A stretch of 64,000 bases of DNA. Origin: Litchfieldia alkalitelluris (GTDB taxonomy: Bacteria; Bacillota; Bacilli; Bacillales; Salisediminibacteriaceae). The stretch spans positions 4,197,100-4,261,099 of the forward strand of contig NZ_KZ119600.1 of the NCBI RefSeq assembly GCF_002153425.1. Reading direction: 5' to 3'. Both the position numbers and the translations under genes were made by a program. Below are positions 1,326-16,990 of this stretch, one piece after another (position 1 is the first letter of the stretch; every line of letters starts with the position of its first letter). The notes beneath the pieces are model-generated. The model had not been told where the DNA came from, did not search any database, and worked only from the letters and a program-made list of their open reading frames with translations.

Positions 1326-4300
1326 TTACTTCTTCACCATATAATATTTATGCTTTCTTTGACGATTTGGCAAGAACTCTTTATATAGCTTCCCTTCTTC
1401 AATTAATGGTTGTACAATGCTTGCTCGCAAATGAGAATCGGAGATAAACTTCACCGTGTTCATAAACTCCAAGATTTCTCCCCACATCCGTGGTTTTTCA
1501 CAAAACTCCAACAAGGCTTTCACTTCCGGTCCTTTCAAAAAGTCCTTCTGCTTTTGCTTTCGTTTCGCCTTGGTTCTCGCCTTTTTCTCATCTAAAAGCT
1601 GTTGCCGGTACTGATCATACCGTTCATCCGTTGTCCACCTCACTCCTATGCTCAAATGGTACACTACCTTTCCGTCTTTAAAGATTGTGGCTTGTTCCAC
1701 AAACTGTGAGTAAAGCTCTGTAGGAAATGCCTGCTGTTGTTCTTCGTGAAGTATCTTTACTTTTTTCATAAGCTCTTTGAATTCATCCCGGTATTGCTCA
1801 GCCAACTTTTTACGGTCCGAGAAAGCTTTTAATTGCTGGTGTAGCTCCACAATCTCCCCACTTAGTTCATCTACCCTTTGTGAGTCTTGTCCGTCTTGAT
1901 GGAGTTCTTCATCCACCACTTCGTAGAGCTCATGGTTCATCTGCTCCATTCTTTTTTGAGCCTCTTCTTCTTGTTTTAATTCCAGGGGACTTAACTCCGT
2001 TTGAGAAATGATTGCTTCCACTTCTTTTTGAAAGGCCTCATTCCGGTAAAGCCCTTTGACCATGTTCACAAAGTGCTGCTCGAGGTAGGTTTGTTGAAAA
2101 CGACGTGAGGAACAGCCCTCGACAGCGTAATACTTTTCCGCAAGTCTACACACCCATCGGTGGATCTCGTATCGTTCACCCGTACTTCGCCGTTCCACCG
2201 CCCTCGAATAGCCAACACCACTCCCACATTCGCCACACTCGAGTTTCTGACCAAACGCTTCATTTTTGTGGGTCTGTGCTATATACTTGCTGCTCATACG
2301 AGACTTATAGGATCTTGATCGATCTTCAATGATGGCTTGTACATCGTCCCACTCTTTGGGATCAATGATGGCTTCGTGGTGGCCTTCGATATAGTATTGA
2401 GGCAATTCCCCTTGATTGGTCGCACTCTTCTCTTCTAACGTGTCCACCGTAAAGTACTTCTGATACAAGTAGTCGCCGCGGTAGACCACGTTTGTCAAAA
2501 TCTGTTTGACCGTACTTAACGACCACATTCCCTTTCCTTTTGGACTCGGGATCCTATCTTTCGTTAGCGAGGCATGGATTTGGCTGTAGTTCTTTCCCGC
2601 CCTTAAGTCCGCATAGATGCGACGGACGATGGTCGCTTCTTCTTTATGAATGATCCATTGATGGTTGTTCCCTATTTCGTACCCGTAGTTCGCCGTTCCG
2701 ACCTTAATAATGCCTCTTTCTGCTTGGCTTCTCTTTCCCCAGGAGATGGAGTTTCCAATGTTGATGCTTTCTTCTTGAGCAATGCTTCCGAAAATCGTCA
2801 TCATCAATTCACTATCGGAATTTTTTGTATGAATGTTCTCTTTTTCGAAGAAAATGTAGACGGGCTTGGAAAGTGACTTCAGCCAACGGATGGTTTTCAA
2901 TGTTTCTAATGTGTTTCTGCTAAATCTTGAAATGGATTTACACAAAATAAGGTCGACATTTCCTCGGCTACATTCATCCATTAATTTCTTAAAGTCGGTT
3001 CTGTTTTTCAGTGACTTTCCAGATATCCCTTCATCCGCAAAGATCCCCGCAAATTCATACCGAGGGTCTTTTAAGATTAGATACGTATAGTACGCGACCT
3101 GTGTCTTATAACTCGTGAGCTGCTCTTCCTTATCTGTCGAAACCCTGCAATAGGCAGCCGTTCTTAGCGGTTTTGTCACCGGGTTGGCTGTAGCGGTGGA
3201 AGGAAGGCCGTTCAAGTTTGCTTCAATGGTTTTCAACATGCTTTTTCCTTCTTTTGGTTCGATTTTGATGACTTCTCGCTCCATTAGAGTTTGCATGCTC
3301 TCTTCACCCCTTCCCTTTAAATGGCCATTTGCATCAATGATCTCATACAACGGCTCTTGTTCTTTTTGTTTTTGTGGCTTTTTCTTGATTGGACTTTCGG
3401 TACTAATCCCCTTCCCATCCTTTTCCGGCATCTCTCCTATGACGGTTTCCGTTCCATCCACCCATTCGATACGGTAATCGTTGGTTGAATAGATCTCCAC
3501 CCCCATCACCCACGCCCGAAGCTGGTCAATCGTCACTTGTTCCAAAAACTCATCTACTGTTTGCACGTCCTCGAGCCAACTCAATGTTTGATTTCGATAG
3601 GGCCGATCATCTTCAATCCTTGCGGTGTGCTTCTCAAATGCTTGATACTCCTGTTCTAACTTGGCCAGATCTCCCTGTTCTGCTTTTGCTAACTCCAGTT
3701 CAGCCATCCATCTTAATCGGTGAAATTCGAAATGGTCTTTCTGATTGATATCTTGCAGCGCTTTTTTCAACTTATGAAAAACAGAAGGGCTCTCCATGTT
3801 AAACTTCTGTTTGAGCCCCTCTAGCAACATTTCTCTCAAAATATCTTCTCTTATGGACGTCAAATCACAGACCCCAATATCGCTCGTGTTACATTTCCAA
3901 TAGTTCACGCCTCTTGTTGGATAGTTGCTCAAACGATAGCTACACCGGTGACAGTTCATTCTCCCTGAAAGACAATGTTTCTTCCCCTTTGGTCCTGTGT
4001 AGTTCTTCTTTGGCTTTATCTCCTCTAAACGTTTCTGTACCTGCTCAAAAACATCCACACTGATAATGGGAGAATGACAGTTTGCAATGGATATCTGATC
4101 TCTTATGTTTTTGGTCGTTTTATTCGTGAAAATATCTTTTGTTCGAACCCTTGTCAGTTTACTTCCGGTATAGGTAACATTGGTTAAGATGTGCTTGACC
4201 GTCGATCCCCTCCACAGTTCTTTCCCAACCGAAGTCTTTATTCCTTGTTGCATCAGTTCGCGAGCAATTTCAGCCATGGTCATGCCTTGTAAAAACCAGT

Positions 4301-4988
4301 CAAAAATTCTGCGAACAACTACAGCTCCTTCTTCATTAATTTGCAGGGCGTTCCGTCCCTCTTTTTTGACTAAATCATAACCAAGCATTTTATTATAGCG
4401 AGGGATACCTTGCTTGAAATTCTTCTCATACCCCCACCTAGTTGAGATGGATATGGTCTCGACTTCTTCTTGAGCAAGCGCCGCATACGTACTTAATAGA
4501 AATTTGTTGTACTCAACCGATGTATCAATCTGCTCTTTCTCAAAATAAAGTCCTACGTTCAATTTTTTAAGCTTTTCAATAATGGACAACGTCTCTTCCG
4601 CATTTCGTGATAGGCGGGAAATATTTTTTGTTAAAATAAAGTCCACTCGGCCTTCTTCACAGTGTCGAAGTAACCGTTGTAGCCCACGCTGTTTATCCGT
4701 TCTGGTTCCACTTCCGCTATCCACATATACCCCAACAAACTTCCAATTGGCTTTGTTTCGGATAAGGTGGGTATAGTGGCTTACTTGGTTTTCCAGAGAA
4801 CGAATTTGCTCTTCCAGTGTGGTACTTACCCGGCAATAAGCTGCCACTCGGATAATCCCTTCCTCTGTTTCAAGAGAGCTTTGCCTTTTCTCCTTAACCG
4901 GATCCCAAAGCGTTCGTACCCACATTCCTTGTTGAACATAATCCAACACAAAAACCCCTTTCCATAGGTGATAATGGTTCGTGTCCAT
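1326..4988 (-). CDS. Fused double large serine recombinase, left copy
   Basis: This 1220-residue protein holds two complete large serine recombinases in one frame. The first has its resolvase domain from about residue 45, with catalytic Ser55 in YCRVST and the SRLSRNA motif near 124-130. A recombinase domain follows, then a Cys4 zinc ribbon (Cys 346, 349, 366, 374) and an end around residue 520. After a charged linker the second domain starts near 608 with Ser617 in AAYCRVSTD, followed by ISRFSRN, a second zinc ribbon with CGECG, coiled coil and a basic tail. Usual family members are 450-560 residues, so this is a tandem fusion. The first half resembles LSR-A (15215-16831) and the second half LSR-B (13555-15222). 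Enzymes of this family cut and rejoin attachment sites. Both active sites look intact. Confidence 0.9.
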   Translation of the reverse strand: MDTNHYHLWKGVFVLDYVQQGMWVRTLWDPVKEKRQSSLETEEGIIRVAAYCRVSTTLEEQIRSLENQVSHYTHLIRNKANWKFVGVYVDSGSGTRTDKQRGLQRLLRHCEEGRVDFILTKNISRLSRNAEETLSIIEKLKKLNVGLYFEKEQIDTSVEYNKFLLSTYAALAQEEVETISISTRWGYEKNFKQGIPRYNKMLGYDLVKKEGRNALQINEEGAVVVRRIFDWFLQGMTMAEIARELMQQGIKTSVGKELWRGSTVKHILTNVTYTGSKLTRVRTKDIFTNKTTKNIRDQISIANCHSPIISVDVFEQVQKRLEEIKPKKNYTGPKGKKHCLSGRMNCHRCSYRLSNYPTRGVNYWKCNTSDIGVCDLTSIREDILREMLLEGLKQKFNMESPSVFHKLKKALQDINQKDHFEFHRLRWMAELELAKAEQGDLAKLEQEYQAFEKHTARIEDDRPYRNQTLSWLEDVQTVDEFLEQVTIDQLRAWVMGVEIYSTNDYRIEWVDGTETVIGEMPEKDGKGISTESPIKKKPQKQKEQEPLYEIIDANGHLKGRGEESMQTLMEREVIKIEPKEGKSMLKTIEANLNGLPSTATANPVTKPLRTAAYCRVSTDKEEQLTSYKTQVAYYTYLILKDPRYEFAGIFADEGISGKSLKNRTDFKKLMDECSRGNVDLILCKSISRFSRNTLETLKTIRWLKSLSKPVYIFFEKENIHTKNSDSELMMTIFGSIAQEESINIGNSISWGKRSQAERGIIKVGTANYGYEIGNNHQWIIHKEEATIVRRIYADLRAGKNYSQIHASLTKDRIPSPKGKGMWSLSTVKQILTNVVYRGDYLYQKYFTVDTLEEKSATNQGELPQYYIEGHHEAIIDPKEWDDVQAIIEDRSRSYKSRMSSKYIAQTHKNEAFGQKLECGECGSGVGYSRAVERRSTGERYEIHRWVCRLAEKYYAVEGCSSRRFQQTYLEQHFVNMVKGLYRNEAFQKEVEAIISQTELSPLELKQEEEAQKRMEQMNHELYEVVDEELHQDGQDSQRVDELSGEIVELHQQLKAFSDRKKLAEQYRDEFKELMKKVKILHEEQQQAFPTELYSQFVEQATIFKDGKVVYHLSIGVRWTTDERYDQYRQQLLDEKKARTKAKRKQKQKDFLKGPEVKALLEFCEKPRMWGEILEFMNTVKFISDSHLRASIVQPLIEEGKLYKEFLPNRQRKHKYYMVKK

Positions 4989-5061
4989 CTATCACTCACA
5001 TCCCATAAAGGTTCAAGTCCTTTTTTACAGGTGGAAAGAGGTTTCTAGTTATTCAATAAGA

Positions 5062-5926
5062 TTACGCTTTTTCTTTTTTCGGTGTCTTGCGTACTTTCGC
5101 ACAGATGGTCCGTTTCACTCCGCATTTAAAGTGGAATTCGACCATCCGCTCTTTGCAAATGATGCCTCGCTCAATTGTGCTTTTGAAAAGCTTGGCATCA
5201 AAATCATCTAATTCTTCCGTTTCTTGGAGTATGTCTAGAAGGGATTGCAATTGCTTCTCCAAATAAACTTGTTCTTGTCTATTTTCTTCCAAGCTATCCC
5301 GCTCTTGTTGGAGAATTTCCTGCTCGTAGATAAGATGTCTTAAGGTTGCATCGTATATGGCATCGCTTGTGGCAGACTCCTTTGCGGCGAGATTACTAAT
5401 TCGGTCACTAACCGCTTCAATCTGGATGTTCAATTCTTCAAGTCGTTCTTGTTCTGGGGGAGAAAGAGATGCTTTTTCAATGGCACACTTCGCTTCTTCT
5501 ACTGTCTCCTCTAGATTCTCTTTCATCTCACGCACGACGTTCATAAAGGCTTTTTCCAGGTCTGTTTCTTGTACATAACTTGTTTTGCAATCTTTAAAGT
5601 CAGGATCCGACCCAGCTGTGACTCGACATTGCCAGGCGGTAAAGTAATACTTTTCTCCTTTCCTGCTTGAAGTCATGCGCCTTCGTACGACCGGCCTTCC
5701 ACATTCCCCGCAAAAAAACTGGTTGGAAAAGATGCCAGTAGAACTATAATTCTGTCGGTATTTCCGATCCGGGTCCCGCATCATCAAACTTCGCCTTTTC
5801 ATTTCTTGTTGAACTGCTTCAAAGGTTTCTTCACTGATAATCGCAGGGTGAGTGTTCTTCACATAATATTGTGGTTGTATATCGTGGTTGCGTACTCGTT
5901 TATGTGATAAGTACGCCGTGGAGACG
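5062..5926 (-). pseudogene. Truncated LSR-B serine recombinase, 3' part only
   Basis: This stretch matches the last half of the 555-residue LSR-B gene at 13555-15222, at close to 90% protein identity by eye. It keeps the end of the recombinase domain, the zinc ribbon (CGECGRPV), the coiled coil and the KTPKKEKA tail. The resolvase domain with the catalytic serine is missing. Homology can be followed upstream to about 5926 (VSTAYLSHKRVRN against VTTCYLSHRRVRN) and then stops. An internal methionine-type start exists near 5862, but a product would be catalytically dead, though it could still bind DNA. It sits 73 bp upstream of the left fused recombinase, as in the intact array. Confidence 0.85.
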
Positions 5927-6013
5927 AATAGATAAAAATTCGCAATATATAGATTGAAAGAATCCGAGTTTCTACTATTATATAAGCAGAATTATTTCGC
6001 TATTATTTATGCA

Positions 6014-6061: not shown

Positions 6062-6073
6062 TATCTTCACTAT

Positions 6074-8617
6074 CTATTTTTTATAAGTAACTTCTGTAGA
6101 TACAGTAGTACGATTTTCAACACTAACTTTAGATTCAATTTTATTTTTTATGACAGAATATAAATCAACTTCTGTCTCAGGTGCCTCAATACTTACTATT
6201 AAAGAATATCTAATCTTTGAATTATATTTCTTTAAGTTCGTTCTCAGTTTCCACCATCCCGTTATTGGATAAACAGCTATTTGATTGCTTTGACTTAATT
6301 CACTTGCTGTTCCTTCCCAAATATCAGAATGAACGGATCCTACATTTCTATTAGATGTCCCGATAACCCAACGGTTACTATCGTTTTTTACATCACCTTT
6401 ATCTTCTTCATCATCTCGCATAGCCTTATTAATTCTCTTCAAGAAATTATCTTGATCCTCAGTTGAATTATTAACATCAAACTGCAGGCCACAAGAAGGA
6501 TATCGATATTTATCTTTCCAACCAACTTCTCCAGGACCTGGTTCAATAAAATAAGACAATGTAACTCGCATCTTTACATTTTTATCTTCCAGACTAAGTA
6601 ATACATCATCTGGCCAGGGTATATTATGAATATGCATTTCTTTTGAAGTAATGCTTCCACTAGCCTTCTTATAAAAAGGTTGAATTTCATCTTCTATAAT
6701 AAGGTTAACTCTATTAGAAACACTCCAAAGTGCTTTCGAAAGATTTGGCACACCATACCCGCAAGTTCTCAATAAGTTTCTATAATCCATTCTTTTTGGG
6801 GGATTATTCTCAAAACAAGCATTTTTCATTGCGTCTGTCCATTCAGCTGAATGAATCATCAAAGCCCTTATTGTTTCTGGCCATAGTTCTGGATAATGAT
6901 GTTGAATATTTGCACCCATCCATGCAGCTTGAGCTGTTGCAGAACTTGTCATACTAAGTGTATCGAATGATTTACCCGTCGCAGCATCTTTACATGTCGT
7001 CAAAAGTTGTAGATCTGGTAATTCTGTATAAAAATTAGAATTTTCATCATAAGCTAAATTTCCACCCTCTAAAACTATATCCGGTTTCACCGGCCATTTA
7101 ATACTCCACGTAAGTGAGCTAGAGGTAAATGGTGAGAAACATCCAGGTTCCACAACTGGATGATATGTACCACTTAATTCTTCAGGTATTTGGTATTTGA
7201 CTGTATAAGCACCTACAGTAATAGCATTCCAAGCTTGTGCAGGATCTTCAATTGCATGGTTGATGACAGCAGTTTTTACATCACCTGATTCGCTAATCTC
7301 TGTAACACTTGTATTTCCTGCAGAAATGAACATAAGCTTTCTTTTTATATCCGTTTCCTCTATTAAATTTGCACCTGAAATAATAGAATCAATCGCTCCT
7401 GACCATGAGGAAGGTCGTCCATCACCTTTAAGTGTATTGGTTGGAGCCGTAATAGCCATACAAATAGCTCTATTAGTCTCAGGATTTTGTATTTCCGCTA
7501 AGCTAATAGCACTTTCGGTAACATAACCATATAATTCTCGTTGATTATCATCACTACGATCAAATAACTTTACAGATTCTAAAAAGTGATTAACTACAAC
7601 AGGAGTAGTATTTTCAAGTTTATCTTCAAGTGTAAAGTAAGATGCTATTCCAGCCATTCTTGTACCATGATTAGCAATGTCATACACACCTTTTGAAGGA
7701 TCTACTGCATGCATATTTTCATCAGTTAAAAGTGGCGCTAGCAAATCATGACCATTATTAACACCTGTATCAAGTAAACAGACCGAAGTATTTGACTGTT
7801 CTGAAACATCTAGTCTTTCTACTAAATCTTTTACAAAGTCTCTTTGATCTAATTCAGAAAGCTCTTCAAAAAAGCTTGTTGGGGTAACCATAATTCTGAA
7901 TTCTGCAATTCTAGAACTTAACCATTGCAATTCTGATAATTGCTGCTTATTAGCTCTTACTCCTAATACGACCCTCTCTGGAAATACTATTTTTTGATTT
8001 TTATGTTGGATTTGTCTTTCATCACAAATTTGAAAAAATTCCCCAATAATGGTGTCCACTTCTTCTTTCATATCAAACATTAACCACACTTCACACCATT
8101 TAGGAGTATTGTTGGGTAATTCATTTTTATCGCTCATCCAAAGAGCATCGACCATTGCTAGATTAATACTCTCTATTGTTCCAATTACTTTTTCTTCAGT
8201 CTCTGTTTCTTTGTACTTATTTAATTTCTTAACAAAAAAATCCCTTTTGTTTTCAGGGACAAAAACAGTGGAGCTTACAACTTTCTGCTCCTCACCATCA
8301 TCTTCACTTTTTATATTACAAATCCTAACTTTTTGCGTTGTATTCTCTAAGCTTTTAGTAATCAGATCATAACCAGCCTGACCCTTAATTTCTAAATATA
8401 CACCGTGTTGAGAAGATACCGAAACCGCGCCTAAAATTTCCTGCTGTTTTTCAGCTTCTTCCCACGCTTTTGTTAAGCTTTCTTCTAATCGTTCTGCATG
8501 GCTACGTCTACTAGTTCTAACGGGATAATTACCTTTTCCACTGTTGGAGACAATTGGTGTGTAATCAACTGTTTGAGAGGATTGATTTATATATAAGTTG
8601 CTTAATTCTGGTTTCAT
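6074..8617 (-). CDS. ietS: Subtilisin-like serine protease, IetS type
   Basis: 847 residues. An N-terminal region of about 270 residues with no recognised motif precedes an S8 (subtilase) domain. The catalytic triad is visible: Asp283 in LLDTGVN, His317 in NHGTRMAG and Ser558 in MTSSATAQAA, with oxyanion Asn435 in SAGN. A beta-rich C-terminal region of about 230 residues follows. No signal peptide or membrane segment is seen, so it should act in the cytoplasm. It lies 7 bp after an AAA+ ATPase gene. This pair matches IetAS, first described as a plasmid stability and incompatibility system of Agrobacterium and later reported as anti-phage. The ATPase presumably controls or feeds the protease. 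Assignment rests on family architecture, not on a search. Confidence 0.82.
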   Translation of the reverse strand: MKPELSNLYINQSSQTVDYTPIVSNSGKGNYPVRTSRRSHAERLEESLTKAWEEAEKQQEILGAVSVSSQHGVYLEIKGQAGYDLITKSLENTTQKVRICNIKSEDDGEEQKVVSSTVFVPENKRDFFVKKLNKYKETETEEKVIGTIESINLAMVDALWMSDKNELPNNTPKWCEVWLMFDMKEEVDTIIGEFFQICDERQIQHKNQKIVFPERVVLGVRANKQQLSELQWLSSRIAEFRIMVTPTSFFEELSELDQRDFVKDLVERLDVSEQSNTSVCLLDTGVNNGHDLLAPLLTDENMHAVDPSKGVYDIANHGTRMAGIASYFTLEDKLENTTPVVVNHFLESVKLFDRSDDNQRELYGYVTESAISLAEIQNPETNRAICMAITAPTNTLKGDGRPSSWSGAIDSIISGANLIEETDIKRKLMFISAGNTSVTEISESGDVKTAVINHAIEDPAQAWNAITVGAYTVKYQIPEELSGTYHPVVEPGCFSPFTSSSLTWSIKWPVKPDIVLEGGNLAYDENSNFYTELPDLQLLTTCKDAATGKSFDTLSMTSSATAQAAWMGANIQHHYPELWPETIRALMIHSAEWTDAMKNACFENNPPKRMDYRNLLRTCGYGVPNLSKALWSVSNRVNLIIEDEIQPFYKKASGSITSKEMHIHNIPWPDDVLLSLEDKNVKMRVTLSYFIEPGPGEVGWKDKYRYPSCGLQFDVNNSTEDQDNFLKRINKAMRDDEEDKGDVKNDSNRWVIGTSNRNVGSVHSDIWEGTASELSQSNQIAVYPITGWWKLRTNLKKYNSKIRYSLIVSIEAPETEVDLYSVIKNKIESKVSVENRTTVSTEVTYKK

Positions 8618-8624
8618 TTATTGC

Positions 8625-9587
8625 TTAAGCCTCCTTATATTTATAATAATTCTTCCGATCTTTAATGTAATTTAATAGTATGTTTTTTGTAATCAGCTGA
8701 TCCTCTAAGATAGAATACTTAACTGCTTCCTCACACGCTTTAACAATGTCTGCATGATTTAATCCTTTGGCCTCTTTGTACACATCTTCTGTAAAAATAT
8801 TGTTAGATGCTTTGCCATGAAGCTTCATCTTAAATAATCTTGTGATTTGTTCGATATCAGGATTTTTATATTCCATCACATCATCAAATCGTCTAAATAG
8901 AGCATTGTCTAAAATGCTCGGATTATTGGTTGCTGCGATGATAATACTATAAGATTCATCATCTTCAAGATTCTGTAAAAATGAATTTAAGATTCTTCTC
9001 ATCTCACCTACATCATTATCTAAGTTTCTATCCGACCCTATAGCATCAAACTCATCAAATAAATATACCCCTCGAACTTCCTTTATCTGATCAAATACTT
9101 GTCGAAGTTTTGCACTTGTTTCACCCATGTATTTCGTTATCAACCGATCAAATTGTATTACATAAAGCGGTAAATATAACTCGCTGGCTATAACCGAAGC
9201 AGTCATGGTTTTCCCTGTACCAGGATCACCTGCAAGTAACAGTTTTGAACGATTCATAAGTCCATTTTTTCTTAAGAGATCTTTTTTGTGATACTCATTG
9301 ATTACACGTTTGATTTTTTCTTCTATCTCAACCGAAACGATTAAATCAGATAAATGGACATGAGTCATCTTTTGTTCAAGAATGTCTAATCCATTATTTA
9401 ATGCTACAACCTTATTTTTGTTTAGATATTTTGGGTTTTGGATAATTTCTTTAATTTCACGAGCACTTGCTGTATGACCTACTTTTGCTTCGTGAGCCGC
9501 AATTTGCAAAACAACAGTTTTAAATTTCTCTTCATTACTATCGAAATGCGCTCTTATTAAAGCTTTAATCTGTTCTATTGTTGCCAT
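8625..9587 (-). CDS. ietA: AAA+ ATPase, IetA type
   Basis: 320 residues. An N-terminal helical region of about 85 residues precedes one AAA+ module of the FtsH/spastin-like class. Walker A is GDPGTGKT (120-127), Walker B is LFDEFDAI (176-183), sensor 1 is Asn221 in AATNN, and the arginine finger is in ALFRRFD (229-235). There is no protease domain in this protein; that role falls to the subtilase gene 7 bp downstream. The start ATG has AGGTG upstream. An AAA+ ATPase followed by a cytoplasmic subtilase is the IetAS arrangement. It is expected to use ATP hydrolysis to regulate the protease or present substrates, which is inference. A generic ATPase/protease stress pair is the main alternative. 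Confidence 0.82.
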   Translation of the reverse strand: MATIEQIKALIRAHFDSNEEKFKTVVLQIAAHEAKVGHTASAREIKEIIQNPKYLNKNKVVALNNGLDILEQKMTHVHLSDLIVSVEIEEKIKRVINEYHKKDLLRKNGLMNRSKLLLAGDPGTGKTMTASVIASELYLPLYVIQFDRLITKYMGETSAKLRQVFDQIKEVRGVYLFDEFDAIGSDRNLDNDVGEMRRILNSFLQNLEDDESYSIIIAATNNPSILDNALFRRFDDVMEYKNPDIEQITRLFKMKLHGKASNNIFTEDVYKEAKGLNHADIVKACEEAVKYSILEDQLITKNILLNYIKDRKNYYKYKEA

Positions 9588-9615
9588 GCGGATTCACCTA
9601 CTTTCTATAGAAGTG

Positions 9616-9655
9616 CTTATATAAAAATATAAGGCACATACATCCTTTGTGCCTT
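9616..9655 (-). promoter_or_regulatory. Two overlapping hairpins in the ietA leader
   Basis: Arms AAGGCACA (9631-9638) and TGTGCCTT (9648-9655) form one hairpin, and ATATAAG (9627-9633) with CTTATAT (9616-9622) forms another. The two share 9631-9633, so full-length versions exclude each other. A TATAAT box lies upstream at 9682-9687, with a poor -35. It may be the end of recombinase transcription, an ietA attenuator, or both. Confidence 0.45.
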
Positions 9656-9806
9656 GAAAAATAACGGTAAAGTTTACTTAAATTATATTTTATGTTAAAA
9701 TTTCCATTTCGTTACAACGCATAGATTCTCTCTTTATTTTATCACTCAATGTCAAGCATCACAACTACATCAATTGGCTCATTTCATGTTGGATAATCAC
9801 TTTTTT

Positions 9807-12800
9807 CTAAAAAGATGTCTTCTTTCTTTGATAATGAAACACCTCTCTGGTCCCACCCTTTTCCGGTGCTTTGAATCTTTCCATTTCCCCCTGCCTCATT
9901 AATGGTCTCAATATAACTTGGAAGATGTGCGAATCAGAAATCTCCATCCTCTCATTCATAAAAACTACAATCTCTTTAACTGCTTTGGGCTCCTCGCAAA
10001 ACACTAACAGCTCCTCCACCTCAAGCCCATTGAGTAACGCCTCATGCTTTTCCTTCGTTTTCTGCTTCTTTTGCTGTCTTTTTATCTCAACATAGTCATC
10101 GTAGGTGTCAGGCATTTTTTGTTCCAGTTCAATTATGAGATGGTAGGTGACCTTTCCATCTTTACACACATCTGCACTACTTATAAATTCTTGAAACAAA
10201 TCTTCAGGGAAGTCCTCGCTTACTCCTTCCACATACTTTCTCACCTTCTTCATTATTTCCTTAAACTGTTTTCTTTCATGTTCCACACGTCTTTCGCGAT
10301 CACTAAAATATTTCAGTCGTTCATGCAGTTCGACCAATTCCTCTGTCAATTGATCCACCAGCTGAGTGTTTTGCCCGCTCTCATGGATACCTTCTTCAAC
10401 CGTACTGTACAAGGATTGGTTTTGCTTCTCTACTTGTTCCTGCAAAGCTGTTCTTTCTTGTTTCTCTTCCTCTGTTAATTCCAATCTATTAATCCAATGC
10501 AAGACGTCATTTTTAAAATTAAGATTGTCATGAATTTGATTTAAAAAGTGAATGAAGTTCCACTCTAAATAATCCTGGCGAATACGCCGTGTATCGCATC
10601 GTTCTTGTCTATATCTCTGATCATGGCGACAGCACACCCAGAAGTGCGTTTCAAAAGGATTTTTCCATCGTCTCTCTACATGCCGTCTATGCCCCATCAA
10701 ATATCCACATTCACCACAATACAGTTTTTCAATAAAAGCTTCATTTTTCATTTCGTCTTTTTCGTATTTCTGATGTCCATCCTTGATAAATCCTTTATTT
10801 CGTTTTCGTTCTTCTAAAATATCTTGAACCCGGTCCCAGTCCTTCGGCTTAATAATCGCCTCATGGTGATTTTCAATATAATACTGTGGTTCCTCTCCTT
10901 GATTACGAACGACCTTGGATTGTAGTGTATCGATGGTCACATGTTTTTGAAATAAGTAATCGCCCTTATACACTTCATTTGTTAACATCGCCATCACCGA
11001 TTTAGGATTCCAAAAGTCTTTTCCAGTCACTGTTTTAATGCCATCCCCTGCCAAGTCTTCGCAGATTTTATTTACTGTCTTTCCTTTTATCACTTCAGAA
11101 TAAATACGTTGGATGACTTTCGCTTGTTCTGGTTGGATATGCCAGTGATAGTCATTGTCCACCCAATACCCAAAAGTAGCTTTCTTCCACCGAATAATTC
11201 CTCGTTTAGCCTGACTTCGATGCCCCCAAGCAATGCTCTTCCCAATATTCATTACTTCTTCTTGGGCAATTGCACCGTAGATGGACATCATCAGTTCTGA
11301 TTGAGGGTCTGATGTCCAAATGTTCTCCTTCTCAAAATAAATATACACAGGGGTTGGGAGTTCTTTCAATTGGCGTGAAATGGAAAGGGTGTCTAATGCA
11401 TTCCGACTAAAGCGAGAAATTGACTTTGTAATGATGACATTTACAAGGCCCCGTTCACAATCCTTCAATAGACGGTTTAATTGATCACGATTTTCCAAGG
11501 AACGCCCTGTAATTCCTTCATCGGCATAGATACCAGCAAATTCGTAGGATGGGTCTTTTAAAATGAGATACGTATAGTACGCTACCTGGGTTTTCAAACT
11601 TGTTTTCTGTTCTAAACGGTCGGTTGAAACCCTGCAGTAAGCAGCTGTTTTAAGTGTTTTTTTAATTTTTTGCAAATGATCAGGTTTTTCATTTCCTATT
11701 CGAGCATTCTCGATCGTTTGAAGAATAACCTTCCCCTCACTTGGTTCTATCTTTTGTACTTCTCGCTCAACTGTAGTATTCATAGCTTCTTCCCCCTTCT
11801 CTTTTAACGCCCCGTGCTCATCTAGAAGGGTCAGTTCCCGGTTCACCTCCTTCTTGGGGCTTTCTTTTTTCATTAATTTCTCTTTCTGAGATGAATGAGT
11901 GGAGTTGCTTTCCGATAATTGACCAACCGTCAGGCTTGTCCCATCAAACCATTCAATTTGGTAGTTTTTTTCAGATTCAATCGTGATTTGATGAATCCAT
12001 GCCCGTAAATATTCCGTCGTTACTTTTTGGTGAAACTCTTCCACAGACTTTAGTGTTTCTAGCCATTCCAATGTCTTCACACGAAATAGACGATCATCTT
12101 CTATTCGAGCCACTTGTTTTTCAAACGCTTGGTATTCTTTTTCTAATGCAACTATCTTTTCTGGATCTTCATTTCTTGCTTTTGCTATCTCCAATTCCGT
12201 TAACCATTTCAACCGATGAAATTCAAAATGATCCTGCTGATTGGTGTCTTTTAGGTCTTTCTTCATTTTTGCAAGGTTATCTGATTGATCCATATCGTAT
12301 TTTGAACTCATCACTTGTAATGCCATTTGTTTTAACTGCTCTTCATTGATATTTGGAGCATCGCATGTTTTTGCATTACTCGAAGCACACTTCCAATAAT
12401 CAATTCGTGGACTAGGGTGAAATTTATACCGATATCCACAAGCATGGCAGATGAGCTTTCTTGCGAATGCAGGTTGATTTATTTTCGTTGGTTTTCCTGT
12501 ATTTCTTTTGTTGCTCTCGATACGCCTCTGTGCTTCTTCAAAAACTTCAAGACGAATAATCGGAGGGTGAGTATTTACTAATTCCATCGCTCCTCGCTCA
12601 TGATATGTTACTTTATGAGTGAACAGGTCCCTCGTCGTGGTTCTTGTCATGATATTCCCTGTGTAGGTATACGTCTGTAACAAGGTTTTGATATTTGATG
12701 ACAACCATCTATCTTTTCCAGTAGCTGTTTTAACTCCTTGGCGATATAATTCTCTTGTTATTTCAGCCCTCGACCATCCTTGTAGAAACCAATCAAAAAT

Positions 12801-13481
12801 GTTGCGAACGCTCGTTGCTTCTTGTTCGTTGATTTCTAGTCTACTTCCTGACTCCTCTTGCACTAAGTTATAACCATATAATCTCGAGAATTTTGCTTCT
12901 CCTTTTTGAAACTTTTTTTCGTATCCCCATTTCGTTGTGGAAGAGAGAGTCTCTATTTCTTCTTGTGCTAAAGCAGCATACGTATTAAGTAAAAAATGAT
13001 TAAAAGTAATGGAGGTATCAATTTGTTCCTTTTCAAAGTAAATCCCCACATCTTTCGCTTTAAGATCCTCTACTATTTCCATCAGATGTTCTGCATTTCT
13101 CGTTAAACGAGATACATCTTTTGTGAGGATGTAATTGACTCTGCCCTCGTCGCAATGGCGAAGCAACCGCTGCAGTCCTCGTTGTTTTTTAGCATTACTA
13201 CCACTCGTACCACTATCAAAATACACACCAACAAATTTCCAATTAGGTTTACTTCTAATTAAGTGGGTATAATGATGTACCTGGTTTTCCAATGACCGAA
13301 CTTGATCTTCAAAAGCGGTACTCACTCGACAATAAGCTGCGACCTTTACTTGCTTTTCACCAAGTAACGGACTTTCCTCTCTTTCCTTGACTGGATCCCA
13401 AAGTGTTTTGGTCCACAAACCTTTTTGAAATTCATCCAACACAAAAACCCCTTTCCCTAAGTGATAATGGTTCGTGTCCAT
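9807..13481 (-). CDS. Fused double large serine recombinase, right copy
   Basis: 1224 residues with the same layout as the copy at 1326-4988, about two thirds identical by eye over the first 200 residues. A 45-residue leader (MDTNHYHL...) precedes the first resolvase domain, with Ser54 in YCRVSTAF, then the VSRLTRN motif, a recombinase domain and zinc ribbon (CHACG...CASSNAKTC). The second unit begins near residue 608 with AAYCRVSTDRLEQ, then ISRFSRNA, a CGECG ribbon, coiled coil and basic tail. Both catalytic serines are present. It is the third gene of an intact recombinase array, 73 bp after LSR-B, and its two halves resemble LSR-A and LSR-B in order. It probably takes part in integration or excision of the phage or islet; the division of labour cannot be read from sequence. 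Confidence 0.9.
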   Translation of the reverse strand: MDTNHYHLGKGVFVLDEFQKGLWTKTLWDPVKEREESPLLGEKQVKVAAYCRVSTAFEDQVRSLENQVHHYTHLIRSKPNWKFVGVYFDSGTSGSNAKKQRGLQRLLRHCDEGRVNYILTKDVSRLTRNAEHLMEIVEDLKAKDVGIYFEKEQIDTSITFNHFLLNTYAALAQEEIETLSSTTKWGYEKKFQKGEAKFSRLYGYNLVQEESGSRLEINEQEATSVRNIFDWFLQGWSRAEITRELYRQGVKTATGKDRWLSSNIKTLLQTYTYTGNIMTRTTTRDLFTHKVTYHERGAMELVNTHPPIIRLEVFEEAQRRIESNKRNTGKPTKINQPAFARKLICHACGYRYKFHPSPRIDYWKCASSNAKTCDAPNINEEQLKQMALQVMSSKYDMDQSDNLAKMKKDLKDTNQQDHFEFHRLKWLTELEIAKARNEDPEKIVALEKEYQAFEKQVARIEDDRLFRVKTLEWLETLKSVEEFHQKVTTEYLRAWIHQITIESEKNYQIEWFDGTSLTVGQLSESNSTHSSQKEKLMKKESPKKEVNRELTLLDEHGALKEKGEEAMNTTVEREVQKIEPSEGKVILQTIENARIGNEKPDHLQKIKKTLKTAAYCRVSTDRLEQKTSLKTQVAYYTYLILKDPSYEFAGIYADEGITGRSLENRDQLNRLLKDCERGLVNVIITKSISRFSRNALDTLSISRQLKELPTPVYIYFEKENIWTSDPQSELMMSIYGAIAQEEVMNIGKSIAWGHRSQAKRGIIRWKKATFGYWVDNDYHWHIQPEQAKVIQRIYSEVIKGKTVNKICEDLAGDGIKTVTGKDFWNPKSVMAMLTNEVYKGDYLFQKHVTIDTLQSKVVRNQGEEPQYYIENHHEAIIKPKDWDRVQDILEERKRNKGFIKDGHQKYEKDEMKNEAFIEKLYCGECGYLMGHRRHVERRWKNPFETHFWVCCRHDQRYRQERCDTRRIRQDYLEWNFIHFLNQIHDNLNFKNDVLHWINRLELTEEEKQERTALQEQVEKQNQSLYSTVEEGIHESGQNTQLVDQLTEELVELHERLKYFSDRERRVEHERKQFKEIMKKVRKYVEGVSEDFPEDLFQEFISSADVCKDGKVTYHLIIELEQKMPDTYDDYVEIKRQQKKQKTKEKHEALLNGLEVEELLVFCEEPKAVKEIVVFMNERMEISDSHIFQVILRPLMRQGEMERFKAPEKGGTREVFHYQRKKTSF

Positions 13482-13554
13482 CTATCACTCACATCCCTTA
13501 AAGGTTCAAGTCCTTTTTTCGGATGGAAAGAGGTTTTTGGTTATCCAGTTTAGG

Positions 13555-15222
13555 TTAAGCTTTTTCTTTTTTCGGCGTCTTTCGTACTTTCGCACAAATG
13601 GTCCGTTTCACACCGCATTTAAAGTGAAACTCGACAATCCGCTCTTTGCATATGATGCCTCGCTCTATGATGCTTTTGAAAAGCTTGCCATCAAAGTCTT
13701 CTAATTCTTCTGCTTCTAAGATGTCTAGAAGTGATTGTAGGTGCTTCTCCAAGTACACCTGTTCTTGCCTGTTTTCCTCCAAGCTGTCCCGCTCTTGTTG
13801 GAGGATTTCCTGTTCGTAGATCAGATGTCTTAATGTGGCATCGTAGATCGCATCGCTTGTCGCTGATTCTTTTGCGGCCAGGTTACTAATGCGGTCGTTG
13901 ACCGCTTCAATTTGACCGTTTAACTCTTCAAGCCGGGCTTGTTCTGGGGGAGAAAGGGACGCTTGTGCAATGGCCGTCTTCGCATCTTCCACCGTCTCGT
14001 CTAGATTCTCTTTCATCTCGCGCACGATCGTCATAAAGGCCTTTTCCATGTCTATTTCTTGTACATAGCTGGTTTTGCAATCTTTAAAGTCCGGATCGGC
14101 CCCAGCGGTGACGCGACATTGCCAGGCAGTGAAATAATACTTCTCCCCTTTCCTGCTTGATGTCATTCGCCTTCGAATGACCGGCCTCCCACACTCCCCG
14201 CAGAAAAAGTGGTTGGAGAAGGTGCCTGTGTTACTGTAGTTCTGGCGATACTTCCGATCTGGATCCCGCAGCATCAAGCTCCTTCGTTTGAGTTCCTGTT
14301 GGGCTGCTTCAAAGGTTTCTTCACTGATGATTGCCGGGTGCGTGTTTTTCACGTAGTATTGCGGTTGAATATCGGTGTTGCGTACGCGCCTGTGCGACAA
14401 GTAGCAAGTTGTGACAGTCTTCTGAGCTAAACAGTGTCCTTGATATTTTTCTTGTTTGATAATCTTATAAACCGCATCACTCGTCCATGTGGTATTCCCT
14501 TTTCCGGTCTTCATCCCATCTCTCGTAAGTTCTTTAGCAATGGTAGGGCATCCTTTTCCTTCAAGAAATTCTCGGAAGATGCGCCTCACTACCTTAGCCT
14601 GTTCTTCGTCAATGACAATCTCGCCGTCTTCCATCGTGTCGTACCCCAGAAAGAATGTGGTCGGCATATGAACAATACCTTGTTGGAAGCGTTTCTGTAC
14701 ACCCCATTTTGTATTTTCACTTACACTTCGGCTTTCCTCTTGGGCCATTGAGGATAAAATGGTTAAAAACAGTTCGGATTTCGAGTCCAACGTGTCGATG
14801 TTTTCTTTCTCGAAATATACGCCCACGGCGGGTTTCAGTCCTTTGAGGCGCCTTAAAATGCTGATGCAGTCAATAGTGTTACGTGCGAAGCGGCTAATGG
14901 ATTTTGTCAAAATATAATCAATTCTATTATCTTCACAGTCCTGTATCATTCGATTGAATTCTGTCCTGTTTTTCGTTGATGTTCCCGATATCCCTTCATC
15001 TGCATAGACATCAACAAGTGTCCAAGCTGGATTCTTTTTAACATATTCAGTGTAGTGAGCCACTTGTAAGTCATAACTACTTGATTGCATTTCCGATGCT
15101 GTTGAAACTCTGGCATAAACTGCTATCCGCTTTTTCTGACCATCAGGATTCTCTTCCATCCGGCCAGTTCTAGCTTTTGCGGGTATAATTCGTACTCTCG
15201 ATTGGTTTTGATATTCACTCAT
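13555..15222 (-). CDS. Large serine recombinase LSR-B
   Basis: 555 residues, normal length for the family. The resolvase domain starts near residue 32 with catalytic Ser40 in VYARVSTA, and the conserved ISRFARN motif is present. A recombinase domain follows, then a zinc ribbon (FFCGECGRPV...WQC...DC), a long coiled coil and a basic tail (KTPKKEKA). The ATG has GGGGAGGAG upstream and overlaps the stop of LSR-A by 8 bp, so the two are translationally linked. It acts on DNA as a site-specific recombinase, probably with LSR-A. A truncated relative lies at 5062-5926. Confidence 0.9.
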   Translation of the reverse strand: MSEYQNQSRVRIIPAKARTGRMEENPDGQKKRIAVYARVSTASEMQSSSYDLQVAHYTEYVKKNPAWTLVDVYADEGISGTSTKNRTEFNRMIQDCEDNRIDYILTKSISRFARNTIDCISILRRLKGLKPAVGVYFEKENIDTLDSKSELFLTILSSMAQEESRSVSENTKWGVQKRFQQGIVHMPTTFFLGYDTMEDGEIVIDEEQAKVVRRIFREFLEGKGCPTIAKELTRDGMKTGKGNTTWTSDAVYKIIKQEKYQGHCLAQKTVTTCYLSHRRVRNTDIQPQYYVKNTHPAIISEETFEAAQQELKRRSLMLRDPDRKYRQNYSNTGTFSNHFFCGECGRPVIRRRMTSSRKGEKYYFTAWQCRVTAGADPDFKDCKTSYVQEIDMEKAFMTIVREMKENLDETVEDAKTAIAQASLSPPEQARLEELNGQIEAVNDRISNLAAKESATSDAIYDATLRHLIYEQEILQQERDSLEENRQEQVYLEKHLQSLLDILEAEELEDFDGKLFKSIIERGIICKERIVEFHFKCGVKRTICAKVRKTPKKEKA

Positions 15223-16831
15223 TGAGTTTTGCTCCTCCCCTTAAGTCAACAATGGTTTCTTGATCATCAATCCACTTTATACAAAAGGACATTGGCGATA
15301 TCGTTTTTACACGAACCACCCATGCCCTTAAAAATGTGATCTGTTCTAGTTCTTTTTGTAATAGTTTTAATGGATCTCTTACTCCTTCTAGTTCTTGCAA
15401 CTTGTGTTGAGCCGTATCTCGAAAGGTGGCATCTTGATCTATCCTTTGCCACCACTCTTCCTTCACTTTTAGCTCTTTTTCAATTTCTTCACGTTTACAG
15501 GCGAGTGCTTCAAGCTTATTGTTTGTACTTGCACTCTCAGTTCCACTTGAATTAATTAATGTGATATTTTCTTCTAACAAGATTTTCTCTAAATCCAGTC
15601 GAAGTCTATTGTAGGAAAGATCTCTTGCTGATACAGCTCTCGAAAGGTCTTTTTCCATTCGTTGAGTGTCGTATACATATTTGGTCTTTCCATAGCGTTG
15701 CAGAAATGCAGCTTGCATAGCTTCCATGATGGTGGCCTCTGTTATACTTTTCATCGGGCAAAGCTCTTTGCTCTTCACATTATTTTCACATCGCCATCTG
15801 ACAAATCCTCTGCAAATAAATCGATGCAAAGTCCCTCCACAATTACTACATTCTATCCGACTAGACAGCGGGTAGCGATTGGCTTTTTTGTTTCGGTTTG
15901 GCTTTTTCCGCTTCTCTAACGCTTGTTGGGCTGCTTCAAATAGTTCCCGGGTGACTATGGGTTCATGGTGGTTTCTAATGAGGAATTGATTTCTTTCCCC
16001 TTTATTAGCCACTTGCTTGTGAGAAAGGTGGCACTCAGTATATGATTTCTGGCAAATGACGTCTCCTGTGTAGTCTCGATTGAGAAGCATTAACCTCACG
16101 GTAGTAGAAGACCAATCTGTCCGGCCATTAATCTTCTCATAGCCCTTTTTAATAAACTCCCTAGCTATTTCAGAGGGCCTTTTTCCTTTCACCACTTCTT
16201 CAAATGCTTCTCGAACAATTTGAGCTTCTTCCTCTATCACAACCCATCTTTTATATGCATCTTGACGATATCCTAGCTTTCTACAAAAGACCGGTTCACC
16301 TCTTTCAAACCGTCTTGATACCGCCCAATTTATATTTTCTGATATGCTTCGACTCTCTTCTTGTGCAGTAGCTGAAAGCATGGTGAGAATAAACTCACTC
16401 GTCATGTCTCCTGTATCTATATTTTCTTTATCAAAAATAATTCGAACACCGAGTTCCGTAAGTTCGCGGATTGTGTTAATTGAATCAATTACGTTTCGCG
16501 CGAATCTTGATACTGACTTACAAAGTATCACGTCAATCTTTCTTTCCTTTGCATGCCTAATCAGTCGATTGAAGCCAGGTCGTTTGTCCATAGATGTTCC
16601 TGTTCGTCCTTGATCTACATAGATGTCTACCATCTTCCAACCCGGTGTGGATCGGATCAATTGTGTATAATGCATCTTCTGATTATCAAATGACCCTTCC
16701 TGTTCATCCGAAAGACTGCTGACTCGTACATATGCCGCTACCCGTAGCAGCTTAGGTTGTTCTTCCAGCTGATTCATTAAAGATAGTCCATCAACCCTTT
16801 GTCCGAATGAACCAAACAATGCTTCTGCCAT
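15215..16831 (-). CDS. Large serine recombinase LSR-A
   Basis: I start it at the ATG of MAEALFG, which follows AAAGGGGG by seven bases; the longer frame begins inside that ribosome site. The product is 538 residues. The resolvase domain carries YVRVSSLSDEQ with the catalytic serine near residue 38 of this start, then VSRFARN. A recombinase domain follows, then a zinc ribbon (CSNCGG...CENN...LC), a coiled coil, and the end motif LRAWVVRVKTI, which recurs in the first half of the fused recombinases. It is the first gene of the array and lies 128 bp downstream of a promoter-like motif shared with phage gene blocks. Its position after the lysis genes fits a phage integration module. Confidence 0.9.
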   Translation of the reverse strand: MAEALFGSFGQRVDGLSLMNQLEEQPKLLRVAAYVRVSSLSDEQEGSFDNQKMHYTQLIRSTPGWKMVDIYVDQGRTGTSMDKRPGFNRLIRHAKERKIDVILCKSVSRFARNVIDSINTIRELTELGVRIIFDKENIDTGDMTSEFILTMLSATAQEESRSISENINWAVSRRFERGEPVFCRKLGYRQDAYKRWVVIEEEAQIVREAFEEVVKGKRPSEIAREFIKKGYEKINGRTDWSSTTVRLMLLNRDYTGDVICQKSYTECHLSHKQVANKGERNQFLIRNHHEPIVTRELFEAAQQALEKRKKPNRNKKANRYPLSSRIECSNCGGTLHRFICRGFVRWRCENNVKSKELCPMKSITEATIMEAMQAAFLQRYGKTKYVYDTQRMEKDLSRAVSARDLSYNRLRLDLEKILLEENITLINSSGTESASTNNKLEALACKREEIEKELKVKEEWWQRIDQDATFRDTAQHKLQELEGVRDPLKLLQKELEQITFLRAWVVRVKTISPMSFCIKWIDDQETIVDLRGGAKLNE

Positions 16832-16903
16832 GTGTTTGCCCCCTTTCAAATTTCAGCTATGTTTCTTACCACCTTGCGTTTTGTATTCAATCTGGCTCGC
16901 CAA

Positions 16904-16946
16904 AAAAAATCTGCTAAAGTGGCTCTAACTCAAGCCCCTACAGCTT
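16904..16946. terminator. Bidirectional terminator or attenuator before LSR-A
   Basis: A GGCT/AGCC-centred hairpin is flanked by eight A residues on one side (16902-16909) and six T residues on the other (16945-16950), so it can terminate in both directions. On the minus strand it falls between the promoter-like motif and the LSR-A start and ends in eight T residues, so it could attenuate recombinase transcription. Confidence 0.55.
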
Positions 16947-16958
16947 TTTTGGTCATTG

Positions 16959-16990
16959 TATATATCACTTAATTTCATCCTAATAGCAAG
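16959..16990 (-). promoter_or_regulatory. Phage-type promoter motif upstream of LSR-A
   Basis: On the minus strand it reads CTTGCTATTA, ten bases, then AAGTGATATATA. It contains TTGCTA and GATATA with a 17-bp spacer. The same motif with identical spacing lies at 38327-38358 and 39588-39619. Confidence 0.6.

Follow-up and report, generated by a model that had tools for sequence, protein, structure and literature searches.

A prophage end joined to the recombinase gene of an older related element, with a defence gene pair beside it, in Litchfieldia alkalitelluris

How does a pair of defence genes come to lie between two arrays of large serine recombinase (LSR) genes that all point the same way? 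The question is raised by a 64,000-nucleotide stretch of the Litchfieldia alkalitelluris genome (hereafter the window), in which ietAS stands between an intact array (LSR-A, LSR-B, and an A-B fusion) and a partial one (an LSR-B remnant and a second fusion). An earlier note on this DNA had read the arrangement as successive integrations at one site and had left open whether the pair is phage cargo or a separate islet. If the answer proposed here is true, it amounts to direct phage-phage competition at the level of integration, with a rival's integrase gene as the landing site, and explains the growth of layered defence islands at one locus; it also makes site choice by serine integrases directly testable through a natural, module-swapped targeting subunit whose types and sites are already paired.

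The two recombinase arrays and the genes between them

All seven genes (LSR-A, LSR-B, fusion, IetA, IetS, LSR-B remnant, and second fusion) are present where the earlier note placed them, and every one lies on the minus strand, in line with the single orientation it had described (Table 1). The array proteins carry the Resolvase, Recombinase, and zinc-ribbon domains of large serine recombinases, together with the catalytic-serine motif, which is found in LSR-A, in LSR-B, and in each half of the two fusions but not in the LSR-B remnant. Each fusion has two Resolvase and two Recombinase domains (Pfam), with two zinc ribbons in the 1224-aa protein and one in the 1220-aa protein. Since the N halves score higher against LSR-A than against LSR-B and the C halves higher against LSR-B, the name A-B fusion is apt. 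The two fusions of the window are 51% identical to each other. Compared with seven related phage arrays, LSR-A of the window shows 66-76% and LSR-B 82-84% identity, and all seven matches to PF07508 in the genome fall at this locus.

Table 1. Features of the window and the basis of their assignment.
Feature	Position	Strand	Basis
DUF6338 protein, first cargo gene of older element	534..1211	-	Pfam
A-B fusion recombinase, type II, 1220 aa, older element	1326..4988	-	Pfam domains; type-II ends at yifB codon 313 or LSR codon 119
3' part (codon 274 on) of older element's LSR-B gene, joined to P1	5062..5913	-	blastx: end of arm runs into LSR-B residue 274, 90% identity
End arm (P1) of newer prophage, 25 bases	5914..5938	-	identical 25 bases at yifB codon 313; conservation among the end arms of related elements
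IetS, subtilase of IetAS defence pair	6074..8617	-	PADLOC IetS 8.2e-36; Peptidase_S8 2.1e-48
IetA, AAA ATPase of IetAS defence pair	8625..9587	-	PADLOC IetA 5.7e-70
A-B fusion recombinase, type I, 1224 aa, newer prophage, proposed targeting subunit	9807..13481	-	two LSR modules
LSR-B, newer prophage, 555 aa	13555..15222	-	Resolvase, Recombinase, zinc-ribbon domains (Pfam)
LSR-A, large serine recombinase, newer prophage, 544 aa	15215..16849	-	Resolvase, Recombinase, Zn-ribbon domains (Pfam)
Newer prophage body (lysis, tail, capsid, terminase, replication genes)	17232..53560	-	homology to related phages; gene names mostly by sight

The newer prophage is a temperate tailed phage with terminase, portal, capsid, tail, and lysis genes beside its integration genes, and these have homologues in S. 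horikoshii, B. timonensis, and IMG/VR phages; its genes were named by sight, with family searches covering a few of them. The interval from about 53.6 to 56.3 kb should contain its far end: homology between phages starts near 53.56 kb, the sequence shared with S. horikoshii on the polysaccharide side stops near 56.25 kb, and the polysaccharide genes start at 56273. IetA and IetS, an AAA ATPase and a subtilase, are adjacent and form an IetAS pair, predicted to act against phage. The older element continues to the left of the window, where its cargo comprises a channel-like gene, ThsB, and Wadjet JetABCD, followed by an arm joined to yifB; a scaffold gap (a run of N) is crossed between the left edge of the window and this end, and the yifB part lies beyond the gap.

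Junctions of a conserved phage end arm

The ORF of the LSR-B remnant (5062-5862) is 89% identical to LSR-B codons 291-555; of the Pfam domains it keeps the zinc ribbon and the final part of the Recombinase domain, and no more. LSR-B homology continues up to base 5913 (codon 274), where it directly abuts the arm P1 with zero bases between, and the junction is in frame. Conservation past the arm is weaker and extends to about 5983. The same 25 bases abut yifB codon 313 left of the window (numbered in the G004 protein, where 313 is the first codon after the cut and the second site is 459). With up to two mismatches allowed, the genome holds three copies of the arm, all in this locus, the two further ones both at yifB remains left of the window, and no copy of the reversed pattern.

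At one junction, then, the newer prophage's end meets codon 274 of the LSR-B gene in the older element; at the other, the older element's own arm meets yifB codon 313. These junctions uphold the idea of successive events involving old and new recombinases; the wording "at one site" is not supported, the older end being at yifB and the newer one in the older LSR-B. The 5.9-9.8 kb interval, listed earlier among candidates for excision, is not an element by itself; the candidate prophage ends are at about 5.94 kb and somewhere within 53.6-56.3 kb. It looks as if the newer prophage inserted itself into a gene used for integration by an older, related prophage.

Such junctions recur in other genomes. 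Over all records, 22 arm junctions were assigned, 15 to recombinase genes, six to yifB, and one to a UDP-glucose dehydrogenase gene, at a few, recurring codons; the T. hominis yifB assignment is based on about three codons, and the count leaves out one further junction (G033) with an unassigned target. Mismatch-free arm matches number 13 in the 397 genomes of the order, nine in recombinase genes and four in yifB, one of the latter assigned by eye from about nine residues. Four of the 13 lie in genomes outside the set from which the pattern was built (G303, G381, and twice in G073), and all four are in recombinase genes. The exact arm pattern had no match in viral contigs. The 22 do not include two further end types: the first was seen at LSR-B 167 and at fusion about 744, the second at yifB about 290 (G358, and twice in G036). 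A split of LSR-B near codon 137-146 in IMG/VR 2926493430 was set aside, the insertion there having other ends.

In the classical single-core reaction of serine integrases, an identical central dinucleotide is expected in all att sites. To the right of the arm, no constant dinucleotide was seen over the 22 junctions, where these two positions read AT, TC, TA, TT, TG, AG, GT, or CT depending on the target, which weighs against the landing proposed below; by eye no shared core is visible at the junctions.

In Bacillus timonensis, an intact array, a lone fusion piece, four arrays of 3' LSR-B plus fusion, and a final yifB piece stand in a row, and remnants of this kind in relatives suggest repeated landing that builds layers of defence genes at one place. 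A tandem series of co-oriented arrays that closes with a yifB remnant could also arise if a single att site had been reused and random decay had trimmed the older arrays. The trimming points, however, recur in frame at the same codons across species with the same arm abutting, and they go with the fusion type, so that reuse with random decay is contradicted by the exact recurrence of the junctions and seems to us highly improbable.

The arm also bears on the origin of the defence genes. We consider ietAS to be probably cargo of the newer prophage, in a slot between the fusion and the end arm, because the conserved arm stands exactly where the LSR-B remnant begins. Between the two origins that the earlier note left open, phage cargo is better supported than a separate islet: the arm lies beyond ietS, some relatives keep other defence genes in the same slot, including a different IetAS, and ietAS follows decayed fusion-gene pieces in three other genomes. 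In these three (G111, G144, and G171), the 3.7-kb segment 6072-9777 lies at another locus with 92-98% DNA identity, and no end arm was found there with up to four mismatches allowed, so transfer or inheritance of the pair does not depend on this prophage. This is what would be expected of a chromosomal or independent cassette inserted between two arrays; yet the pair is preceded there by weak, decayed fusion pieces, for which the best query is the window's type-I fusion (about residues 729-793), and relatives fill the same slot with other defence genes, which makes such a cassette very unlikely. IetS of at least 90% identity occurs in three genomes besides its own among the 397 of the order, one copy being broken, and yifB, polysaccharide, or phage genes of this locus are found in none of these three stretches. 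Among these carriers, none has ietAS at this locus without recombinases, the case by which the earlier note would have had its reading fall. Viral contigs yielded no IetS relatives.

Fusion types and their targets

Among 13 elements, the 10 pairs with a shared target all agree in fusion type (permutation p 2e-5), in a test that treats the elements as independent of descent, whose types were assigned with the targets already known and which includes B. timonensis array 4 with its different end arm. The exception to this rule is a G073 fragment in which a type-I-like C half is followed by an LSR-119-like target. Type I has three complete fusions for which the end is known, and in each case that end is at LSR-B codon 274. 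A rule of one site per fusion type proved too strong, as type II uses both yifB 313 and LSR 119.

The fusion evolves apart from A and B. A type-I array (L046) and a type-III array (L051, with its fusion cut by the contig end) are 97% identical in A, 90% in B, and 56% in the fusion; the corresponding values for the window against L046 are 76%, 83%, and 86%. Its association with the target and this independence of A and B together make the fusion the probable targeting subunit.

Codons 270-274 of the window's own LSR-B encode VTTC before the cut and Y after it, and other types have VTID before it and F or Y after it. The four residues 270-273 are altered in all five type-I arrays (VTTC, VTTS, and VTLD three times), and they are VTID in 8/8 close arrays of other known types and 2/2 of unknown type; an altered 274 site is thus found in 5/5 arrays of type I and 0/8 of the other types. 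Judged by these sequences, type-I phages appear to protect themselves through the altered site in the LSR-B gene that they carry. The support for self-sparing is confined to type I, because type-II phages keep their own LSR-B codon-119 site unaltered and in type-III phages the ILTK site in LSR-B is intact.

A proposed stack of phage ends and its relation to known systems

We think it fairly probable that the locus is a stack of ends of related temperate phages, in which the fusion picks the target, a relative lands in the resident's recombinase gene, and the middle is later lost. These phages would carry the A, B, and A-B fusion genes at the right end, then a cargo slot, often with defence genes, then the conserved end arm. 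A and B would act at this arm, and the fusion, in exchangeable types, would pick the target. Because the targets, as far as known, would be short sites mostly in yifB and relatives' recombinase genes, a superinfecting relative would land in the gene with which the resident integrates and break it, and the older cargo would then be locked into the chromosome. Later, the central part of the doubled prophage would disappear, either through homologous recombination of the two related phage bodies or through a deletion made by the recombinases, and nothing but the target's 3' part, the old fusion, and the old cargo would remain. We hypothesize further, and much more tentatively, that A and B may handle the phage end and the exchangeable fusion may read short, conserved coding motifs in rivals' recombinase genes without the shared core on which serine integrases normally depend, that each type would have to alter its own motif, and that superinfection would disable the resident's integration gene and fix its defence cargo in the host. 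An aspartate codon stands immediately to the left of the cut at each of the four main sites.

The partners of the right-end junctions were sought as well. No attL was identified: in a comparison of eight prophage left ends, the window's included, no common end sequence turned up, and a terminator-like repeat after the polysaccharide genes was dropped as a left arm because it is possibly just the host operon's terminator. Among the loci read, none has both target halves beside one complete prophage. Two sets of genomes were searched for the 5' target halves, and these are missing throughout: yifB in four (the own genome, S. horikoshii, B. timonensis, and T. hominis) and the LSR in seven (the own genome, B. 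timonensis, Cytobacillus, T. hominis, G303, G381, and G073). With the full YifB protein as query, the 3' part was recovered from the own genome, from S. horikoshii, and, as a short match, from B. timonensis, and apart from a degenerate 5' piece in S. horikoshii the remaining matches are Lon-like; three matches to the ChlI model in the own genome were read from their sizes as Lon, LonB, and RadA, not yifB.

Missing left halves are what an adjacent deletion would produce, in which the left site by the polysaccharide operon is fixed and the recombinases join the right arm further to the right, deleting the yifB 5' half, the older prophage body, LSR-A, and the 5' part of LSR-B. Consistent with this, the left neighbour is a polysaccharide gene (by sight) in six of six left ends (window, S. 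horikoshii, B. timonensis, G066, G096, and G013, a phage with another recombinase pair), and the right junction varies. A contig of IMG/VR genome 2916897638, however, breaks off at codon 273 of LSR-B, precisely at the left half of the 274 site, and retains LSR-A and the 5' part of LSR-B, which fits persistence of both sides of a split site, and serine integrases are not known for one-ended deletions; we regard this course of events as less likely than landing followed by loss of the middle. Pieces of the targets were also seen elsewhere: in S. horikoshii, the degenerate 5' piece of yifB, at a distance of 7 kb and on the far side; yifB pieces (residues 21-90) beside polysaccharide genes in G381; and LSR-A plus LSR-B residues 9-144 as a loose piece in IMG/VR 2926493430. 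In keeping with the proposed stack, G008 has an intact yifB after polysaccharide genes in a stretch without phage genes.

Several known systems resemble this locus in part. Composite SCC elements hold several recombinase complexes and cargos in tandem at one locus with one fixed site. The stack described here shares the tandem recombinases and cargos and differs in that the next landing site is the resident's recombinase gene. Set against known IetAS (PADLOC models PDLC02196 and PDLC02198), the pair itself is ordinary, adjacent, and co-oriented, and only its placement is notable. A gut phage, IMGVR 517045 (PV036459, Ca. Heliusvirales by its record), is a divergent case with four LSR-B matches in its record; behind its endolysin come two genes of single length and one of double length, and the halves of the latter share 30-42% identity with the fusion halves. 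Among titles and abstract starts, in a library with few subscription papers and preprints, we recognised no report of a phage integrating into another phage's recombinase gene.

The gin element of Bacillus cereus (girA, girB, and girC, three separate genes) splits a host gene and is without phage genes, and GirC with GirX carries out the gerE recombination at a 9-bp shared sequence; composite SCC elements of staphylococci are mentioned there too (PMC5595907). Like gin, the newer prophage brings three serine recombinases in a Bacillaceae element; unlike gin, it has phage genes and a fusion. Three separate single recombinases are likewise described in PMC6814731. The triplet serine integrases of Streptococcus ICEs are three single genes in one orientation at one element end, in some cases with genes between integrases and target, and insertion disrupts mutT, hsdM, or traG (in one case another ICE's), with 2-8 bp direct repeats (PMC4701971). 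The arrays here similarly place three co-oriented serine recombinase genes at the end; end arms were seen inside genes. They depart from the triplets in having two single genes and one double-length A-B fusion as the third, a phage as carrier, targets mostly in yifB and recombinase genes, and a cargo slot that often holds defence genes. Taken together, triplet serine integrases are already known, and the fusion-bearing variant looks new.

Ends and cargo of the two elements

In the genome of Litchfieldia alkalitelluris, the 3' part of yifB begins at codon 313 (numbered on the intact G004 protein) and is directly preceded by a non-yifB stretch ending in CACGGCG. A near-identical stretch lies at the same yifB codon in S. 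horikoshii and is absent from five intact yifB genes of relatives. The same 25 bases occur at window 5914-5938, stopping exactly where homology to the large serine recombinase LSR-B starts, at codon 274. A search of this genome with a pattern built from the variants seen of this phage-end sequence (the arm) found three copies, none of them outside this locus: one at window 5914, one at yifB 313 and one at another yifB piece, decayed, that lies still further left. The reversed pattern gave none. By the copies at window 5914 and yifB 313, the newer element ends beyond ietAS, which thus lies between that end and the A-B fusion; the older element (second fusion, DUF6338, ThsB and Wadjet) has an end of its own at yifB.

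Along the minus strand the order is polysaccharide genes, prophage (about 56-17 kb), LSR-A, LSR-B, fusion (1224 residues), ietA, ietS, a 3' LSR-B piece, the second fusion (1220 residues) and the DUF6338 gene. Beyond the scaffold gap left of the window follow a channel-like gene, a ThsB-type TIR gene, Wadjet JetABCD, the 3' part of yifB (comM) and a Y1-type transposase, yifB and the transposase being named by sight. The PF07508 recombinase model has seven matches genome-wide, all within this locus.

Features of the prophage and its polysaccharide flank (window coordinates)
Feature	Position	Reading	Remark
UDP-glucose dehydrogenase gene	57273-58649	minus strand	named by sight
Epimerase gene	56273-57346	minus strand	named by sight
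N6-DNA methylase and type-I specificity-like parts in one protein	53965-55833		near the far prophage end
Second cargo region	19498-25000		prophage interior, past the lysis genes
AbiEi-like gene	24280-24873		second cargo region
PDC-M03B-like gene	23840-24265		second cargo region
PDC-M68A/B pair	21464-22375, 19498-21234		second cargo region
Holin gene	18879-19313	minus strand	prophage lysis
Amidase gene	17909-18922	minus strand	prophage lysis

In S. horikoshii, three other genes take the place of the methylase/specificity gene. In the left flank (L008), the third arm copy (1028-1052) is joined to the decayed yifB piece; with a further yifB 3' piece 6.6 kb to the right of this copy, it makes up a third layer. 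Additional yifB 3' pieces are found off to one side in this genome and in G036, where a fresh yifB came to stand in front of an older piece; in G036 (L166, 2581-4080, 6123-6729 and 18143-18569) an intact yifB is followed by two separate 3' pieces, both beginning near codon 290 and each behind a similar end sequence unlike the arm. Could this be the same process, carried out by another phage family?

The slot between fusion and arm is as short as 0.2 kb and as long as about 10 kb, the latter in the older element here, gap included. Its cargo is IetAS in the window and a different IetAS lineage in array 5 of Bacillus timonensis (PADLOC IetA 1.2e-139, IetS E = 0). Elsewhere the slots carry Wadjet together with ThsB, neighbouring PDC-S50/AlbA and HEPN genes, genes for an AbiL-like ATPase and an AbiD/Abi_2 protein and, in G096, one for a NERD nuclease. 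PADLOC was run on 20 proteins from the slots and the left flank, covering part of the slot genes, and 11 had a match; the other slot proteins tried had none. At L008:15269-17361, left of the window and running across a scaffold gap, the ThsB-type TIR gene (PADLOC ThsB1 3.1e-65) stands beside the membrane, channel-like gene, and no ThsA was noticed in this stretch; the two may form a Thoeris variant whose effector is a channel.

The ietAS segment at window 6072-9777 recurs in G111, G144 and G171 at 92-98% DNA identity. There, too, ietA is preceded by weakly matching, decayed remains of a fusion gene: two or three short tblastn segments per genome, at about residues 729-793 and scoring 22-42 bits. 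No arm was found at these ietAS copies at up to four mismatches. In G111 and G171, ietAS adjoins genes named by sight as smpB and RNase R.

Probable landing sites and the fusion types

Across 397 genomes of the order, the arm pattern had 13 matches without mismatch, four in yifB and nine in recombinase genes. Nine of the 13 come from the pattern's three source genomes (this one, S. horikoshii and B. timonensis); the other four (G303, G381 and, twice, G073) are new, and all lie in recombinase genes. One-mismatch matches fell in yifB of G157 and in a UDP-glucose dehydrogenase gene of G096. At up to two mismatches the pattern matched 33 times and its reversed control 12 times, so most of the weaker matches are chance ones. 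Among 35 family genomes, two more one-mismatch matches were a junction in G033, outside the assigned set, and unrelated sequence in G034. LSR-B relatives with at least 55% identity turned up in 5 of the 397 genomes, and the phage group is thus uncommon.

All records together gave 22 assigned junctions: LSR codon 119 (seven), yifB 312/313 (five), LSR-B 274 (four), an ILTK motif of the catalytic domain (three), and yifB 459, fusion 841 and UDP-glucose dehydrogenase (one each). The fusion 841 junction has a divergent arm and no clear boundary; wherever the boundary is clear, it falls between target codons. In intact homologues of the four main sites, an aspartate codon stands immediately left of the cut (T-L-D, T-I-D, I-D or V-D). 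This rule fails for yifB 459 and the dehydrogenase, which were compared with genes of other species only. The junctions share no constant dinucleotide, an unusual feature if a serine integrase made them.

In B. timonensis, an intact array, an isolated fusion piece and a run of four arrays, each made of 3' LSR-B and a fusion, extend over some 42 kb, with a yifB piece at the end. In G013 (C1:3199754-3230334), a different type of serine recombinase (about 42% to LSR-B) recurs at a second location; a two-gene module may show the same habit there.

The type of fusion goes with the target. Type I fusions (window, L044, B. timonensis array 3) belong to elements ending at LSR-B 274. Those of type II, namely the older element of the window, array 5 of B. 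timonensis and the elements of S. horikoshii, T. hominis and Cytobacillus, end at yifB 313 or LSR 119. The ILTK motif is where type III elements end (array 1 of B. timonensis and two arrays of IMG/VR 2929886851). Two further types have one member each, one ending at yifB 459 and one, whose end arm differs, at LSR-B 167. Pairs of elements with a common target agreed in fusion type in 10 of 10 cases (13 elements; permutation p 2e-5), and in 15 of 18 when three fragmentary fusions were added (p 1e-5), both tests ignoring common descent and using types set with the targets known. The discordant pairs all trace to G073.

The fusion has an evolutionary course separate from that of A and B. Between L046 (type I) and L051 (type III), identity is 97% in A and 90% in B but 56% in the fusion; for the two type-I arrays of the window and L046, the corresponding figures are 76%, 83% and 86%. 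Nor does the arm follow the fusion type, as the type-I and type-II elements here share identical arms over 25 bases and type-I ends elsewhere differ from the window's arm by 4 to 6 bases. Because type goes with target, the fusion evolves apart from A and B, and the arm is independent of type, we propose that the fusion is probably the targeting subunit.

The own target site and the missing 5' halves

A type-I phage's own LSR-B contains its target. Codons 270-273 are altered in five of five type-I arrays, reading VTTC (window), VTTS (B. timonensis array 3) and VTLD (L045, L046, L044); the VTLD cases are one lineage, so at most three changes are independent. VTID stands there in all eight close arrays of other known types and in two arrays outside the typed set, and four divergent arrays read VTVD, ITVD, ITID and VTID. 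The type-III phages with ends at the fusion's N-half and C-half sites have a different wording at these places in their own fusions, INYVLTK and VILVK, respectively, and both still have the site in LSR-B. Codon 119 of type II's own LSR-B is unchanged. These comparisons support self-sparing by an altered own site for type I only.

Normal integration would place the 5' half of the target at the prophage's other end. A 5' half of LSR-B is missing both from this genome and from the LSR matches of B. timonensis, Cytobacillus and T. hominis. Nor was a full yifB 5' half found in this genome, S. horikoshii, B. timonensis or T. hominis, or a recombinase 5' half in G303, G381 or G073. Loose pieces are a degenerate yifB 5' piece in S. 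horikoshii, yifB fragments near polysaccharide genes in G381, and LSR-A with LSR-B residues 9-144 in IMG/VR 2926493430, whose LSR-B is split at another place. In that record (L115:2036-16328), 14 kb with a capsid-like gene of their own separate LSR-B residues 9-144 from 137-555, the two parts being 62% and 81% identical to the window's LSR-B.

The prophage left ends examined adjoin polysaccharide genes in six of six cases, and in G008 polysaccharide genes are followed by an intact yifB. In G096 (L159:4069-11723), where the arm is joined within the dehydrogenase gene, a second, intact dehydrogenase-epimerase pair 3.5 kb to the left indicates polysaccharide genes duplicated or replaced at the same locus.

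The loss could have come about in two ways. A phage would integrate into a resident's LSR-B, after which the two related phage bodies would collapse by homologous recombination; or a recombinase would make a deletion starting at the arm. A contig of IMG/VR 2916897638 carries holin, amidase, LSR-A and LSR-B, has a gene start at its other edge and stops exactly after LSR-B codon 273 (...GATCGAT), which favours integration over deletion; since the assembly breaks at precisely this base, codon 273 may be followed by more than one sequence.

Comparison with known systems

In ICEs of Streptococcus, triplets of serine integrases break mutT, hsdM or another ICE's traG and leave repeats of only 2-8 bp (PMC4701971); gene-breaking triplets, even ones landing in another mobile element, are on that account already known. 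The gin element of B. cereus (PMC5595907) has three serine recombinases like the locus here but, unlike the prophage, is without phage genes. As far as the literature was searched, what is new is the proposed role of a fused third recombinase as an exchangeable target selector, the recurrent use of relatives' recombinase genes as landing sites, the altered own site and the slot for defence cargo.
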